DNA from: Limnospira fusiformis SAG 85.79
GTDB lineage: Bacteria > Cyanobacteriota > Cyanobacteriia > Cyanobacteriales > Microcoleaceae
Assembly: GCF_012516315.1 (NCBI RefSeq)
Contig: NZ_CP051185.1
Location: forward strand, 1,229,403 to 1,293,402
DNA: 64,000 bases
Direction of reading: 5' to 3'
The translations under genes were made by a program, and so were the position numbers. Positions 24,222 through 62,740 of the stretch are shown here, piece by piece; positions within the stretch are counted from its first letter, which is position 1; every line of letters begins with the position of its first letter. The notes beneath the pieces are model-generated. The model made no database searches, was not told where the DNA came from, and worked only from the letters and a program-made list of their open reading frames with translations.

Positions 24222-25985
24222 TGCGAGACGTTTAGGAGTGAAATAGGGCTGCAATGCTCGAAATAACCTCCTAGAGGGGAATAAACTGATTCAACCCAGT
24301 TACCCCTTAACTGTTTATATGTTCCAACGCTCGGGCTGAAAACGAGCAAGGCAGGAAACTCAAGGTCAATCCCATTTTAAGAAATCGCCAAATTTACCGT
24401 CCAGGTGAACTTAGGAGGAGTAAAATCCACTTGGGGCGATTATGGGAAAGAGTAAAGGCGATAGCCACCCCCAGTTTTGGGAATCACAAACCCAGGATTG
24501 AAGCGGGGAACGGAAGGCGTGAAGTAGAACCTACTACCAGATGCGACCACTGCCAACCATCCATGATTAGGGAAACCGAATGTTCGGCTTGAACCATCGT
24601 TATAAATAAGCAGCGAAATAGGTTTGATACGCTGCGCCCAAAAGGGTAAGGGGAAAAGTAGGAGTTTGTATTTACTACCTACACAGACCTTTTTAAGTAC
24701 CCCGGTGGATAGAACAAATCTAAAGATGGAATGCCCATATAAACGGAACGTTTAAACCCCTGTTAGGCTCTCAGTAGTGTTGTGTCTATTGAGTAGTGAA
24801 AAGTGTAAGCGTATGGTGCGAGACGTTCGGGTATGAAATAGGGCTGAAATGCCCGAAATAACTACCCGGTGAGGATTCCAGCTCCGAATCTGGATATAAG
24901 GAGACCTCTCCTGACCATCCTCATAACTGGTTATATGTCCCGACGCTTAGGGAACTAAGCAAGGCAGGGAACTCAAGGTCATAAACGAACTGAGAAATCA
25001 GGGAGTAGAGAGTAACGGCGATAGCCACCCCCAGTTTTGGAAATCATAACTCCAGGATTGAAGCGGGGAACGGAAGGCGTGAGGTAGAACCTACTACCAA
25101 GACGCGACCACTGCCAACCATCTATGATTAGGAAGACCGAATGTCCGACTTGAACCATCGTAATACACTAGCAGCGAAATAGGTTGACACGCTGCGCTCA
25201 AAAGGGCAAGGGGAAAAGTAGGGGGTTCGTCCGACTACCTATACAGACCTTTAAAAGTACCCCGGCGGAGAGGACAAATCTAACGATGGAATGCCCATAT
25301 AATCGGAACGTTGTAACCCCTCTAATGCTCTGCCTATAAACCAGTGAGTAATGCTATTCACAAGGCAGTAGTGAAAAATGTAAGCGCATGCTTAGAGGGT
25401 GAAGGATGTGACCAGAAGCTAAAGCCCAATTGTCATGGTTGGGATATGCCCACAGGTCACGGTGTGGATATAGATACTGCGGTCAGTAAGAGTATAATGG
25501 CGAGGACGAGTTTAAAGACTACGTGGTGCATATAGCTCTGAACATCGAAGTAGAAAGCAGGTCTCTTGATTCTGCTCCTTTGACAAATAGGGTATCCACA
25601 CCAGGAGCCGTGTGATGGGAAACTATCAAGCACGGTTCTGAATGGGAGAGGGTGAAGGTGACTTCACTCTCGACCCCTAACCCTTTAAGGGGAAAGGATG
25701 TGACTGAAAGCCAATGCCTAACTGTAATGGTTGGGATATGCCCACTAGTCACGGTGTGGATATAGAGACTGCGATAAGTAGGAGTGTTATGACGAAAGCG
25801 AGAGTAATGGAGAAATCCATGAGACTACGTGTTGTATATAGCTCCCAAAGTTGAAGTCACAAAGCAGGGGGTTGTAACCCTGTTCCTATTGACAATAGGG
25901 TGTCCACATCAGGAGCCGTGTGATGTGAAAGTATCAAGCACGGTTTTGAATTGGAGTTGGGGAAGGCGACTTCCCTTTCGACCAT
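24222..25985 (+). mobile_element. Outer group II intron of a twintron, ORF-less
   Basis: The 5' end GTGCGAGACG at 24222 fits the group II GUGYG start. The 5' ribozyme part runs to about 24815, is interrupted by a second intron (24816 to about 25678), and resumes with GGAAAGGATGTGACTGAAAG. A 34-base domain V lies at 25913-25946 (GAGCCGTGTGATGTGAAAGT, with the AGC triad), followed by a domain VI-like hairpin and an end near CGACCAT at about 25985. No reverse transcriptase/maturase is encoded. The intron lies between genes rather than in a recognisable exon. The 3' end is uncertain by some 10 bases. Confidence 0.8.
24816..25678 (+). mobile_element. Inner group II intron nested in the outer intron, ORF-less
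   Basis: The 5' end GTGCGAGACGTTCGGG at 24816 and a 34-base domain V at 25605-25638 (GAGCCGTGTGATGGGAAAC) followed by a domain VI-like stem define a complete, ORF-less intron of about 0.86 kb. It is closely related to the outer intron: both have the blocks GCGATAGCCACCCCCAGTTT and TGAAGCGGGGAACGGAAGGC. In the inner intron GTAAGCGCATG runs straight into CTTAGAGGGTGAAGGATGTG, whereas in the outer one the same point (after 24815) is broken by this insertion. Splicing would need a maturase supplied in trans. Confidence 0.8.
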
Positions 25986-26274
25986 AACAAAATAATAGCA
26001 CGGGTGAACCCCTAATGCAACCCACCCCCTCAAAAAATTTTTTGTAATATTTCTTAACTTTTGTAACAAAAATTTACATAATCGGGGCGGAATCAGGTTG
26101 TGTGGGGTAGCCGGGGGGAAGGTTCAGTGAGTGGCCTAGGTAGAATGGTTGCTGGGACTGTTATGGGAAAGATGTAAAGTTTTGTAAAATATTGGGGATC
26201 ACCCGGAAAAAATGTAACAATGAATACAGAATAACCAAGTAGACTTTAAAAATTACCCTTTCGGAGAAACAGAT
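25986..26274. other. AT-rich region between the twintron and the DUF4278 gene
   Basis: No gene is seen. A run of A and T with CAAAAAATTTTTTG near 26028-26046 is a short palindrome. The 3' part should hold the promoter of the downstream gene; CGGAGAAACAG about 10 bp before its ATG is a likely ribosome binding site. Confidence 0.35.
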
Positions 26275-55970: not shown

Positions 55971-58229
55971 ATGCAAACCCTATCAACCACAACTGATACC
56001 CCCTTCAATCGCCAAATTCAGGTAATCCGGCGGGATGGATCATTAACTCTTTTGGATGTGTCCAGAATTCGCGCAGTCGTCAACTGGGCTTGTGAAGGCT
56101 TAGATGCTAACCCCATTACTTTGGAAGCTGGACTGACCACTCGCCTGAAAAATGGAGTCACCACCAGGGAAATTCAGGATAACTTAATAGGTTGTGCCTT
56201 AGAGTTGTGTAGCCCCTCAGACCCAGACTGGCGGTATGTAGCCGGGAGGCTGCATATTTGGAACTTGTGGAAAGATACCCTAGTTAGCCGTGGCTACCAA
56301 TATGAGGATTATTGCCAAACCGTTACTAGCAAAGTGAAATCTGGTCAGTATGACGCGCGCTTATTAAAATATACCCCCGACCAGTTGAGAGAAGCGGGAA
56401 GCTGGATTAACCCCCAATGGGATAAAGATTATGATTATGCGGGGGCGGTTTTACTAACTAAACGTTATTTATTACCCGAGGAATTACCCCAAGAAGCCTT
56501 ATTATCTTGTGCCTTATTATTAGCCGTAGTCGAAGCCCCAGAAAAACGAATGTTTTGGGCGCAGAAATTCTATCAAGCGATCGCCCTGCGTCAGATTTCT
56601 TTAGCCACCCCGATTTTAGCTAATTTGCGGATTCCTAACGGGTCTTTGAGTTCCTGTTTTATTATCGGTATGGATGATAATTTAGAGAACATATTTGACA
56701 CCATTAAAGACGCTGCCCGGATTTCCAAAAATGGCGGCGGTGTTGGCGTAAATGTCAGCCGCATTAGGGCAACAGGTAGCTGGGTAATGGGTAAGCCTAA
56801 CGCATCCGGTGGCGTGATTCCCTGGATTAAACTGTTAAATGATACCGCCATTGCTGTCAATCAGGGAGGCCGTCGCGCTGGCGCAATTACCGTCAGTTTA
56901 GATGTGTGGCATTTAGACATTCTCGAATTTTTGGAGATGCAAACCGAGAATGGAGACCAGCGCCGGAAGGCTTATGATATTTTCCCTCAATTAGTCATTT
57001 CTGATGAGTTCATGCGCCGGGTGCGTAACTGCGAAAACTGGACTCTGATAGACCCCTACGAAGTCCGGGTAAAATTGGGCATAGAATTATCAGAATTATG
57101 GGGTGAAGAATTTGAGTCAGCTTATCAAAAAATAGAAGCGTCTTTAGACTATGAATTAAAACTATATAAGCGGATAAATGCTAGGGAACTGTTTAAAAAC
57201 ATTATGCGATCGCAAGTAGAAACCGGGATGCCTTATCTGTGGTTTAAAGATACTAGCAACGCCGCCAATCCTAACCAACACGAAGGATATATTCCTGGGG
57301 GTAACTTGTGCCAAGAATCTTGGTCTAACGTCAAACCAGGAGAACTCGCCCATACCTGCAACTTAAATAGTCTAAATCTCTCTAATTTAGATTGGCAAGA
57401 CCTACCCAATATTTGCGAAATAGCCGTCCGCATTTTAGACAACACCATCGAAATTACTCACCCACCATTTCAAGCCAGTATTGACCATAATCAACGTTAT
57501 CGCACCATTGGCGTGGGTGTCATGGGGTTAGCGGATTGGTTAGCCAAACGGCGTTTTTCCTATAGCCATTTACAGGAAATTAGCAACCTGTTTGAAGATA
57601 TCGGATTTTACTGCACTAAAACCTCAATGGAACTCTCCAAAGAAAGGGGGGCTTATCCGGCATTTGCTGGAAGTTCCTGGAGTCAAGGTAAGTTAATTGG
57701 TGCTAAACCAGTCGATTGGTTTTTAACCCACGCCGACGATAAACAAAGGTGGAAAGAATTAAGCGAAGATATCCAAAAATATGGGATTAGGAACTCTCAT
57801 ATAACCGCCATTGCTCCCAACACATCATCATCCTTAGTCCAAGGTTGTACCGCCAGCGTATTACCCTGTTATAGTCGTTTCTTCTATGACAAATGGGCTA
57901 AAGGAACCGTCCCCATTGCGCCTCCCTTTATTAAAGACAACTTCTGGTTTTACCCAGAGAATAAAACCCTAGACCAGCAAATTGTTGTCAAAGCCGTAGC
58001 TGCCATGCAGCAATGGATTGATACAGGAATATCAATGGAGTTGATGTTTAACCTCAATCAAGGCGTATATTTCCCCGAGGAACCCGCGCGCAGCCTTAAA
58101 GCTAAAGATATCTTTGACACCCTGATGGCTGCTTGGGAACAGGGGTGCAAAGCCATCTATTATGTGAGGACAGTTCAGCGGGACAGCTTTCAAGAATCCG
58201 ACGATGCCTGCACAGCTTGTGCAAATTAG
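55971..58229 (+). CDS. nrdA: Ribonucleoside-diphosphate reductase, alpha subunit
   Basis: A 752-residue class I large subunit. N-terminal ATP-cone (IQVIRRDGSLTLLDVSRI, about 15-100), the substrate-site cysteine in NGSLSSCFIIGMDD, the glycine-rich SKNGGGVGVNVSRIRATGS, the active-site NLCQESW with Cys/Glu, the HTCNLNSLNLS cysteine, the PNTSSSLVQGCTASVLP phosphate loop and a C-terminal CTACAN redox pair. All parts of an active enzyme are present and no intein or intron is seen. Two NrdR-like sites lie upstream. The intron-split nrdB begins 201 bp downstream. Confidence 0.95.
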   Translation: MQTLSTTTDTPFNRQIQVIRRDGSLTLLDVSRIRAVVNWACEGLDANPITLEAGLTTRLKNGVTTREIQDNLIGCALELCSPSDPDWRYVAGRLHIWNLWKDTLVSRGYQYEDYCQTVTSKVKSGQYDARLLKYTPDQLREAGSWINPQWDKDYDYAGAVLLTKRYLLPEELPQEALLSCALLLAVVEAPEKRMFWAQKFYQAIALRQISLATPILANLRIPNGSLSSCFIIGMDDNLENIFDTIKDAARISKNGGGVGVNVSRIRATGSWVMGKPNASGGVIPWIKLLNDTAIAVNQGGRRAGAITVSLDVWHLDILEFLEMQTENGDQRRKAYDIFPQLVISDEFMRRVRNCENWTLIDPYEVRVKLGIELSELWGEEFESAYQKIEASLDYELKLYKRINARELFKNIMRSQVETGMPYLWFKDTSNAANPNQHEGYIPGGNLCQESWSNVKPGELAHTCNLNSLNLSNLDWQDLPNICEIAVRILDNTIEITHPPFQASIDHNQRYRTIGVGVMGLADWLAKRRFSYSHLQEISNLFEDIGFYCTKTSMELSKERGAYPAFAGSSWSQGKLIGAKPVDWFLTHADDKQRWKELSEDIQKYGIRNSHITAIAPNTSSSLVQGCTASVLPCYSRFFYDKWAKGTVPIAPPFIKDNFWFYPENKTLDQQIVVKAVAAMQQWIDTGISMELMFNLNQGVYFPEEPARSLKAKDIFDTLMAAWEQGCKAIYYVRTVQRDSFQESDDACTACAN

Positions 58230-58430
58230 CTATAATATCCGTTACCACTAAACTTCTGGTCGGGGGCATCCTAAATTCTCCCGATTAGTTTAGTGTTGTT
58301 GATGAAAATCAGCCGCTGATAAATACAACTTTTCAGCATTGATGAACATCAACAAAAACTCCCGTTTTGGATGGAAAAAATGACGCTTGTACTAAACTTT
58401 AACGGTCACAACAATAAGCAAATCAACAAA

Positions 58431-60137
58431 ATGCCCCTCAATCCCATCTTTAATCCTGATGGTAACGATGATGTGGCTCACCGTTCAATGTGGTTTGGCG
58501 AGACTACCAACCTAATGCAACTCAATGATGTTCGCTATTCTTGGGCAGTCGGTTTATACAAGCAAATGCGCGAAAATTTCTGGGTTAATTAGGTAGCCCA
58601 GATTAAACCCCTTGAAAACGGGGGAACTCTGGAGTTGCATGGTTCGCCAAAACTGGGGATAACCGACAAGGAACCTTACCAAGTTGATGTTAAACAAAGA
58701 AAAGGTTTTTTTGCGCTAATGGCGATCGCATATAGCACTACAGACAATCCCGTGCCCAGCTCACAGATACTGAGAAGGTGTAGAGACTATCCAGGTTATG
58801 GAGTAGGCAGTAAGCGGTTGACTGTCGAAGCGGGGGGCTCTTTTGTTTCACAAGAGATGATGATATAGTCCGATCTATGTGGTGACACATAGCAGCTTGA
58901 ATAAAGCGGGCAACACCTAGCGACTGTTGTTGAACATCAATGACCTGAAAAATTAGACATCACCCAGGATGTTGTCGATTACACTAATTTAACCCCTGAT
59001 GAACGGACGGCATTTGATGGAATTCTATCTTATTTAACTTTCTTGGATTCCATTCAAACCTGCAACATTCCGTATCTGAAAAATAGTGTAACTGCCCCAG
59101 AAGTCAGCCTCTGTATGGCCGAACAAATCTCTCAAGAAGGAATGCACAATCAGAGTTATCAATACATGATTGAAACTATCATTCCTTCGGAACGGAGAAA
59201 CTACGTTTATGACTTTTGGCGCACCGATAAAGTTTTACGCGATCGATGTGAGTTTATCGCCGGACTTTATCAAGAATATGTTGATGATCCCACCCCGGAA
59301 AATTACTTTGTCTCATTGATGGCAGATTACTTGTTAGAAGGAATGTACTTTTATAATGGGTTCATTTTCTTCTACAATTTGGCATCGCGAATGTTAATGC
59401 CTGGAAGTGCCGATATTTTCAAGATGATTAACCGTTAATGTTAGCGGCTATTGTCAGTAATGATAATAGAAAACCCCTTGAATTCAGGGGAAGTCTCATT
59501 GAGATAATCCTGAGCGAAACCTATGCTAATTAGCAGAATGTTCAAACTATGTCAGAGTTAAAATCTGGTAACTGTTATGAACAAGGGACGTGCAAAGACC
59601 ATCCAGAAATGGAGTAGAGTCAAGCGACTCGAAGCGGGGGGAATCCTTCTTACATAAGCTAAGGATTGTGATATGGTCTGTTCTATTCGGCGACGGGTAG
59701 CTGCTTAAATCAAGCGGGTAGGGAATAGCGACCCCTACTGAACATTAAAGGACGAACTTTCTCATGTGCGGTTATTCCAGAAAATTATCCCGGAAGCTAT
59801 GGCAATTTTTCCCCATTCCCAAGACCGGATTTATGAAATGTTCGATGCGGCTGTTCAACATGAATGCCGCTGGACCAATCATATTGTTGGTAACAACATT
59901 TTGGGAATTACTGAACACAGTACAGAACAGTACACTAAATATCTCGCTAATATCCGACTGCGTTCTATTGGTTTAGAATCCCTCTATAGTGACCCCAAAT
60001 ACCAAAAGAGTCCCTATACTCATTTAGAGCGTTTCTCGGATACTAAAAAAGAAGCTCACACTAAGGCGAACTTCTTTGAAGCCAGTGTTACCAGTTATGT
60101 GATGTCTTCTGGGGTGAGTGGCTGGGATGAAATTTGA
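58431..60137 (+). CDS. nrdB: Ribonucleoside-diphosphate reductase, beta subunit, split by two group I introns
   Basis: Exons 58431-58585, 58943-59435 and 59751-60137 join into 1035 bases encoding 344 residues with no interruption. The joined protein reads MPLNPIFNPDGNDDVAHRSM at the start, ENFWV-PEKLDI across junction 1 and DIFKMINR-DELSHVRLF across junction 2. Metal ligands and radical Tyr are present: FLDSIQTCN (Asp), QEGMHNQSYQYM (Glu, His, Tyr), LLEGMYFYNGF (Glu) and DELSH (Glu, His). In the unspliced RNA exon 1 and exon 2 each run into a stop just inside the intron. Upstream in-frame ATGs at 58371 and 58380 could extend the protein; family length favours 58431. Confidence 0.9.
58586..58942 (+). 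ncRNA. Group I intron 1 in nrdB
   Basis: A 357-base intron. The exon end TCTGGGT (58579-58585) pairs fully with the internal guide GCCCAGA (58596-58602), ending in the obligate U-G pair at the splice site. The last intron base is G (58942). The P7 stem GACTAT (58785-58790) with ATAGTC (58865-58870) lies in the R-like GTAGAGACTAT and S-like GATATAGTCCGATC elements. No homing endonuclease is encoded. Confidence 0.88.
59436..59750 (+). ncRNA. Group I intron 2 in nrdB
   Basis: A 315-base intron beginning after T 59435 (CCGT-TAATG) and ending with G 59750. The P7 stem GACCAT (59597-59602) with ATGGTC (59673-59678) replaces the GACTAT/ATAGTC of intron 1 with both sides changed together, a compensatory difference. 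The guide GCGG pairs with CCGU of the exon, with U-G at the site. It shares GAAGCGGGGGG and the AACCCCTTGAA start region with intron 1. No ORF. Confidence 0.85.
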
Positions 60138-62338: not shown

Positions 62339-62740
62339 CATCCCATAACACAGCCTGATTTTTTGGCCCACCTTCGAGACTTCCAATATGGTTGCCAAGG
62401 TGAAGCGTCTAATCAGGTCTAAGACTGCCCGCGCCATGCTGACATGGGCGCATTATCGATTCAAACTAACCCTGAGACATCAAGGGGAAATAACTGAACA
62501 GTTGTAGATGTGACCGAAGAATACACCAGCAAAACCTGTACTCACTGTGGTCATGTCCATTCCCAGCTAGGTGGCTCAAAAGTGTTCCGATGTCCGGAGT
62601 GCGGGTTCACTCTACCACGGGACTGGAACGGTGCTTTTGGAATCTTTCTAAAAGCTTTGCGGGATACCGCCTCTGTTACCTTAACGGGTAATAGTGCTAT
62701 CGTCGCATTGTCCGGGAACAACCGGAAAAATGTCGCGTAA
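62339..62740 (+). pseudogene. IS200/IS605 tnpB 3' fragment
   Basis: The first part reads LIFWPTFETSNMVAKVKRLI then RSKTARAMLTWAHYRFKLTL, the TnpB segment before the zinc ribbon. A small deletion or frameshift near 62500-62510 separates it from DVTEEYTSKTCTHCGHVHSQ and CPECGFTLPRDWNGAFG. The end is nearly the same as at 35915-36148. The N-terminal two thirds of TnpB are missing, so no nuclease can be made. Confidence 0.82.

Follow-up and report, generated by a model that had tools for sequence, protein, structure and literature searches.

Two group I introns interrupt nrdB, the single-copy ribonucleotide reductase small-subunit gene of Limnospira fusiformis SAG 85.79

The nrdB gene of Limnospira fusiformis SAG 85.79, which encodes the small subunit of ribonucleotide reductase (RNR), is divided into three exons by two group I introns of 357 and 315 nt. 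The gene occupies positions 58431-60137 (+) of the window, i.e., the whole 64,000-nucleotide stretch of DNA that was analysed, which lies within a complete 6.42-Mb chromosome. This arrangement had been proposed from the sequence by the original prediction, and matches to Rfam model RF00028, intron-free homologous genes, covariation and the genome of a sister species all agree with it. The explanation we favour as a whole, with a probability of about 0.96, is that two subgroup IA introns sit at recurrent homing sites, would excise themselves from the transcript, and were probably brought there by phage-borne homing before losing their endonuclease genes. Feature coordinates are presented in Table 1.

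Table 1. Window coordinates of the nrdA and nrdB features and of the intron helices (5' strand/3' strand).
Feature	Position	Strand	Description
nrdA	55971..58229	+	intact 752-aa class I large subunit, upstream of nrdB
nrdB exon 1	58431..58585	+	residues 1-51 plus two bases of codon 52
Group I intron 1	58586..58942	+	357 nt; Rfam RF00028, 60.0 bits
Intron 1 P1	58580-58585/58596-58601		CUGGGU/GCCCAG, U-G at splice site
Intron 1 P10	58591-58594/58943-58946		AGGU paired with 3' exon ACCU
Intron 1 P3	58608-58614/58831-58837
Intron 1 P4	58618-58622/58749-58753
Intron 1 P5	58628-58631/58741-58744
Intron 1 P7	58785-58790/58865-58870		GACTAT/ATAGTC
Intron 1 P7.1	58791-58793/58799-58801		CCA/TGG
Intron 1 P7.2	58807-58811/58821-58825		GCAGT/ACTGT
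Intron 1 P8	58839-58846/58850-58857
Intron 1 P9	58875-58881/58886-58892		capped by GUGA tetraloop
Intron 1 P9.1	58895-58898/58904-58907
Intron 1 P9.2	58911-58915/58925-58929
nrdB exon 2	58943..59435	+	last base of codon 52 through R216; D87, E117, H120, radical Y124, E184
Group I intron 2	59436..59750	+	315 nt; Rfam RF00028, 68.8 bits; alignment to relatives
Intron 2 P1	59432-59435/59444-59447
Intron 2 P10	59440-59442/59751-59753		three pairs only
Intron 2 P3	59474-59480/59635-59641
Intron 2 P4	59484-59488/59509-59513
Intron 2 P5	59493-59498/59500-59505
Intron 2 P7	59597-59602/59673-59678		GACCAT/ATGGTC
Intron 2 P7.1	59603-59605/59610-59612		CCA/TGG
Intron 2 P7.2	59617-59621/59626-59630		GAGTC/GACTC
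Intron 2 P8	59642-59648/59661-59667
Intron 2 P9	59683-59689/59694-59700
Intron 2 P9.1	59703-59706/59712-59715
Intron 2 P9.2	59717-59723/59733-59739
nrdB exon 3	59751..60137	+	D217 to stop; ligands E218, H221

Exons, junctions and the spliced product

Excision of both introns, 672 nt in all, yields a 344-codon frame from 58431 whose C-terminus is FFEASVTSYVMSSGVSGWDEI*. The intron boundaries given by the original prediction (58586-58942 and 59436-59750) proved exact to the base. When either excision was shifted by 1-10 nt, the same product was never obtained, hence both junctions are unambiguous. As had also been claimed, the first two exons each meet a stop just inside the following intron if left unspliced: exon 1 runs into TAG at 58590, 5 nt inside intron 1, and exon 2 into TAA at 59436, the first codon of intron 2. 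The predicted length of 344 residues stands for a start at 58431, but in-frame ATGs further upstream, at 58371 and 58380, would allow 364 or 361 residues. Given these ATGs, 344 is the length counted from the conserved MPLNPIFNP start and is not certain.

By its motifs, the spliced product is a class Ia NrdB. It contains the full set of metal ligands and the radical tyrosine that had been anticipated (D87, E117, H120, Y124, E184, E218 and H221 in spliced numbering), with these roles assigned by analogy with E. coli R2, and intron 2 splits the RDExxH motif between R216 and D217. In comparison with solved R2 structures, residues 6-336 match 6zjk_C with E = 1.3e-81. Uninterrupted cyanobacterial nrdB genes align end to end with the product, with an amino acid identity of up to 87%.

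Intron structure and subgroup

When the window was searched against Rfam with cmscan, both introns matched RF00028 over the full model (positions 1-253), with E = 1e-12 for intron 1 and E = 2.4e-15 for intron 2, and both scores exceed the gathering score of 50. Given these E-values, the intron-free relatives that are collinear across both junctions, and the presence of the same introns in the sister species, chance is excluded. The group I rules invoked in the original prediction are likewise all present, namely an exon U/intron G pair at the 5' splice site and a final G in both introns, and complementary P7 strands (Table 1). The U-G pair is found in 8/8 site-52 homologues (sites are numbered by NrdB residue), and the terminal G in all introns extracted at sites 52, 123, 191 and 216.

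In intron 1, core helices P3, P4, P5, P6, P7 and P8 were all located, including the P3/P7 pseudoknot. The model was compared with eight site-52 introns from several genera, leaving out L079, since the MAFFT alignment that included it was misaligned in P5/P6. In these homologues, 96.0% of the cells are paired, against 37.5-44.1% when pairing partners are displaced by 1-3 columns; compensatory change, with both sides altered, is seen in 18 pairs, and the covariation score is 0.275 versus 0.133 in shuffles. Intron 2 has the same architecture plus P2: P3, P4, P5, P7 and P8 of its core were located, and its paired helices are P1, P10, P3, P5, P7, P8, P9 and P9.2.

Between P7 and P3', both introns have two extra stems, P7.1 and P7.2. 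P7.2 is 100% paired in the eight homologues, with one A-U/U-A swap, and P7.1 is poorly aligned in three of the eight. Stems of this kind are a signature of subgroup IA, a type common in phages, and it is on their presence that both nrdB introns are assigned to this subgroup.

The other two group I introns of the genome (chromosome positions 3278705-3278941 and 4372669-4372928, both on the minus strand) sit in tRNA-Leu(UAA) and tRNA-Arg(CCU), genes that were detected by ARAGORN with introns allowed. They are of the same ribozyme class as the nrdB introns but have tRNA hosts; cyanobacterial tRNA introns are generally of subgroup IC3, without P7.1/P7.2. Elsewhere in the window, two matches to group II domain V/VI (25603-25681 and 25911-25988, both on the plus strand) lie about 308 nt apart. 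No reverse transcriptase ORF of at least 100 aa was found near them, and the group II introns concerned may be degenerate or nested. A 76-aa ORF at 62510-62740 (+) resembles the zinc-ribbon C-terminus of a TnpB-type transposase and is probably a fragment.

Insertion sites in cyanobacteria and phages

NrdB of this kind was found in 21 of the 59 sampled relatives, and is interrupted in 11 of those 21; when 156 genomes were drawn evenly from the class, it was found in six and is interrupted in two. Group I introns occupy positions 52, 123 (between S123 and radical Y124), 191/192 and 216 of the relatives' nrdB, while group II introns with reverse transcriptase ORFs occupy positions 31, 50, 52, 64, 92 and 166, their hosts including Crocosphaera watsonii (position 31) and Crocosphaera MO_199.B6 (position 52). 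At position 282, a group II domain abuts an nrdB exon across a contig break. Taking group I and group II together, nrdB of this cyanobacterial family has at least ten insertion positions.

The Planktothrix-like and Nostocales nrdB genes (L116-L126 and L075-L083) have introns at 52 and 216 that agree with those of the window in position and core. There, they occur both with and without endonuclease genes, whereas the window's pair is without: no endonuclease-like ORF was found among the window's open reading frames within either intron, and the 110-nt P5 loop of intron 1 contains no recognisable remains of a lost endonuclease. By position and core, the window introns are endonuclease-free members of site families that include endonuclease-bearing introns. 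Further group I introns are present in these genes at 123 and at 191/192, as are group II introns at 50, 64, 92, 166 and 282, with a maximum of four introns per gene compared with two in the window gene; several of the Planktothrix-like genomes reach this maximum. Five Planktothrix-like genes (L118 and L121-L124) hold three or four introns each, groups I and II mixed, at residues 50, 52, 64, 123, 166, 191/192 and 216, several of them in active-site codons. The earlier statement that two introns in one bacterial gene are uncommon is valid across bacteria, but two is at the low end in this family.

At site 52, the relatives' introns contain ORFs of 177-184 aa with an HNH-like Cys/His pattern, which gave no Pfam match at E 0.001, and at site 191/192 a GIY-YIG ORF is found. 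The site-216 intron contains an HNH_3 ORF in some relatives (L118 and L124) and, in another loop, a LAGLIDADG_2 ORF in one (L121, a locus on the reverse strand); in L122, the HNH ORF is reduced to a short 3' remnant. In L121, L123 and L124, the introns at sites 52 and 123 are near-identical from P9 to the 3' end and otherwise different, a pattern that suggests 3' domain exchange between introns of one gene.

Group I introns in RNR genes of phages and some cyanobacteria, to which the original prediction referred, are exemplified by T4/RB3, Sureiya, Nostoc and Arthrospira. The phage nrdB introns (T4/RB3, Sureiya) share both ribozyme class and RNR context with those of the window. In Serratia phage vB_SmaM-Sureiya, the intron lies exactly at the site of window intron 2 (site 216, between R and DE), and its 5' end resembles that of intron 2 (CGT^TAAT...TAGCGGCT); unlike in the window gene, the intron has a long insertion, and the phage's NrdB is only distantly related. 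The nrdB intron of T4-like phage vB_EcoM_G8 lies near residue 193-194, a site different from those of the window, and by the same arrangement the T4 intron would lie there too. Phage introns in other genes have pieces of the core in common with the window introns.

A total of 69 viral NrdB loci were found, mostly uninterrupted. IMG/VR contig L200 (1-1729) encodes a host-like NrdB with a group I intron at site 52 that contains an HNH-like ORF, and this gene adjoins genes matching virion structural and tail PHROGs. Contig L207 (2483-3781) encodes a host-like NrdB with a site-216 intron, which scores 96.2 bits against RF00028; its neighbour genes gave no PHROG match, its viral status resting on its IMG/VR collection. 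A search of plasmids returned only intron-free nrdB, from Nostoc and Calothrix (~73%).

In a tree of intron cores, which is based on about 170 alignable positions and has some weak nodes, introns of the same insertion site cluster together rather than introns of the same host. The site-52 clade has a support of 84, the site-216 plus site-123 clade 95, and the whole site-216 clade 53. The L200 intron nests among Planktothrix-like site-52 introns (support 81), and the sister group of the L207 intron is formed by the site-216 introns found in Planktothrix-like genomes and in genome G057 (support 94). Since homing predicts clustering by insertion site, this is a homing signature.

As examples of cyanobacterial RNR genes with group I introns, a 2014 review (PMC3984707) cites Nostoc punctiforme (the RIR intron of Meng et al. 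2007, also cited in PMC1995217 and PMC12702839) and Arthrospira platensis NIES-39 (Fujisawa et al. 2010); a 2024 review (PMC11395459) mentions group I introns in protein-coding regions of NIES-39. As cited there, these cases match the window in ribozyme class and in having an RNR gene as host. NIES-39 is also of the same genus, judging by the C-phycocyanin beta subunit encoded in the genome studied here: over 172 residues it is identical to PDB chain 1ha7_B, from Spirulina (Arthrospira) platensis, which places the organism in Arthrospira/Limnospira. Yet the intron-bearing gene is named nrdE in PMC3984707, whereas that of the window encodes the small subunit. Published work already covers the ribozyme class, RNR genes as hosts and the genus, and the two exact introns may already have been described. 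On RNR introns of Arthrospira or Planktothrix, our literature search returned nothing beyond the citing reviews, and it returned no description of how extensively nrdB has accumulated introns in this family, nor of matching introns in viral contigs.

Proposed mechanism, alternatives and dependence on splicing

Once transcribed, each intron would fold and dock the 5' splice site as P1, with its U-G pair, and the 3' exon as P10. P1 and P10 would align the exons, and guanosine-initiated transesterification, the chemistry expected from the family, would excise each intron, so that the ligated mRNA would encode the 344-aa class Ia NrdB. The two in-frame stops would halt ribosomes ahead of the catalytic cores. 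We infer that homing, driven by endonucleases, probably brought the introns to these sites, that cyanophages are likely to have carried them, and that the endonuclease genes were probably lost thereafter.

The NrdA upstream is the genome's only PF02867 protein, and the genome-wide search found no PF00268 protein besides this NrdB and no NrdD. With only this NrdB and a single NrdA, and lacking NrdD, the cell depends on the splicing of both introns to make dNTPs aerobically. In sister species G001, the same two introns are found at the same positions, with 96.4% identity for intron 1 and 98.1% for intron 2. Of the codon differences in the exons, 11 are synonymous and 2 non-synonymous.

These data bear on the possibility that nrdB is a decayed pseudogene with dead introns, dNTPs being supplied by another reductase. 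It would explain the in-frame stops, which without splicing preclude a full-length translation product; however, the genome, a single contig that is 99.9% complete, has no second RNR, nrdA is intact, the exons are under purifying selection, and the introns are 96-98% conserved between sister species. Single-copy status and conservation lead us to reject this reading, to which we give next to no probability. Just as negligible is a gene in pieces, in which the three exons are translated apart and the fragments assemble. The exons are indeed separate open frames in the DNA, and among RNRs there is a precedent for a subunit that works although it is split: NrdA of phage Aeh1 is reportedly encoded by a split gene whose fragments assemble. 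Yet the first start in exon 2 is a TTG at residue 86, and in exon 3 the stretch from the TGA at 59739 to the codons of E218 and H221 is devoid of start codons, the first being a GTG at residue 222, past both ligands. Separate translation was rejected on this analysis of start codons, exon 3 not being startable with E218 and H221 included, and it would also leave the complete group I cores and the matching P1/P10 pairings unexplained.

A further alternative concerns only the origin of the introns: one of them may be a duplicate of the other within nrdB, instead of a product of independent homing. The two do have sequence in common in the core and the P9 region, with 79% of the aligned positions shared when they are aligned globally with gaps. 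In the tree of intron cores, however, each is nearer to same-site introns of other genera and phages than to its nrdB partner, with the site-52 and the site-216 plus site-123 clades supported as given above, which makes duplication highly improbable.

Under the favoured reading of two self-excising introns at homing sites, the formation of deoxynucleotides by any recognised RNR, aerobic or anaerobic, requires the removal of two ribozymes from a single-copy gene. Obligatory guanosine-dependent splicing of nrdB might conceivably be a control point that ties dNTP synthesis to the level of guanosine nucleotides or to translation rate. We consider this very unlikely; if true, it would account for the introns outlasting their endonucleases. 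More broadly, nrdB of this cyanobacterial family is a collecting point for introns, and unless annotation models the introns, genes of this type will be taken for fragments or pseudogenes. Because viral contigs have matching introns at the very same positions, phage-borne homing in cyanobacteria becomes directly testable.
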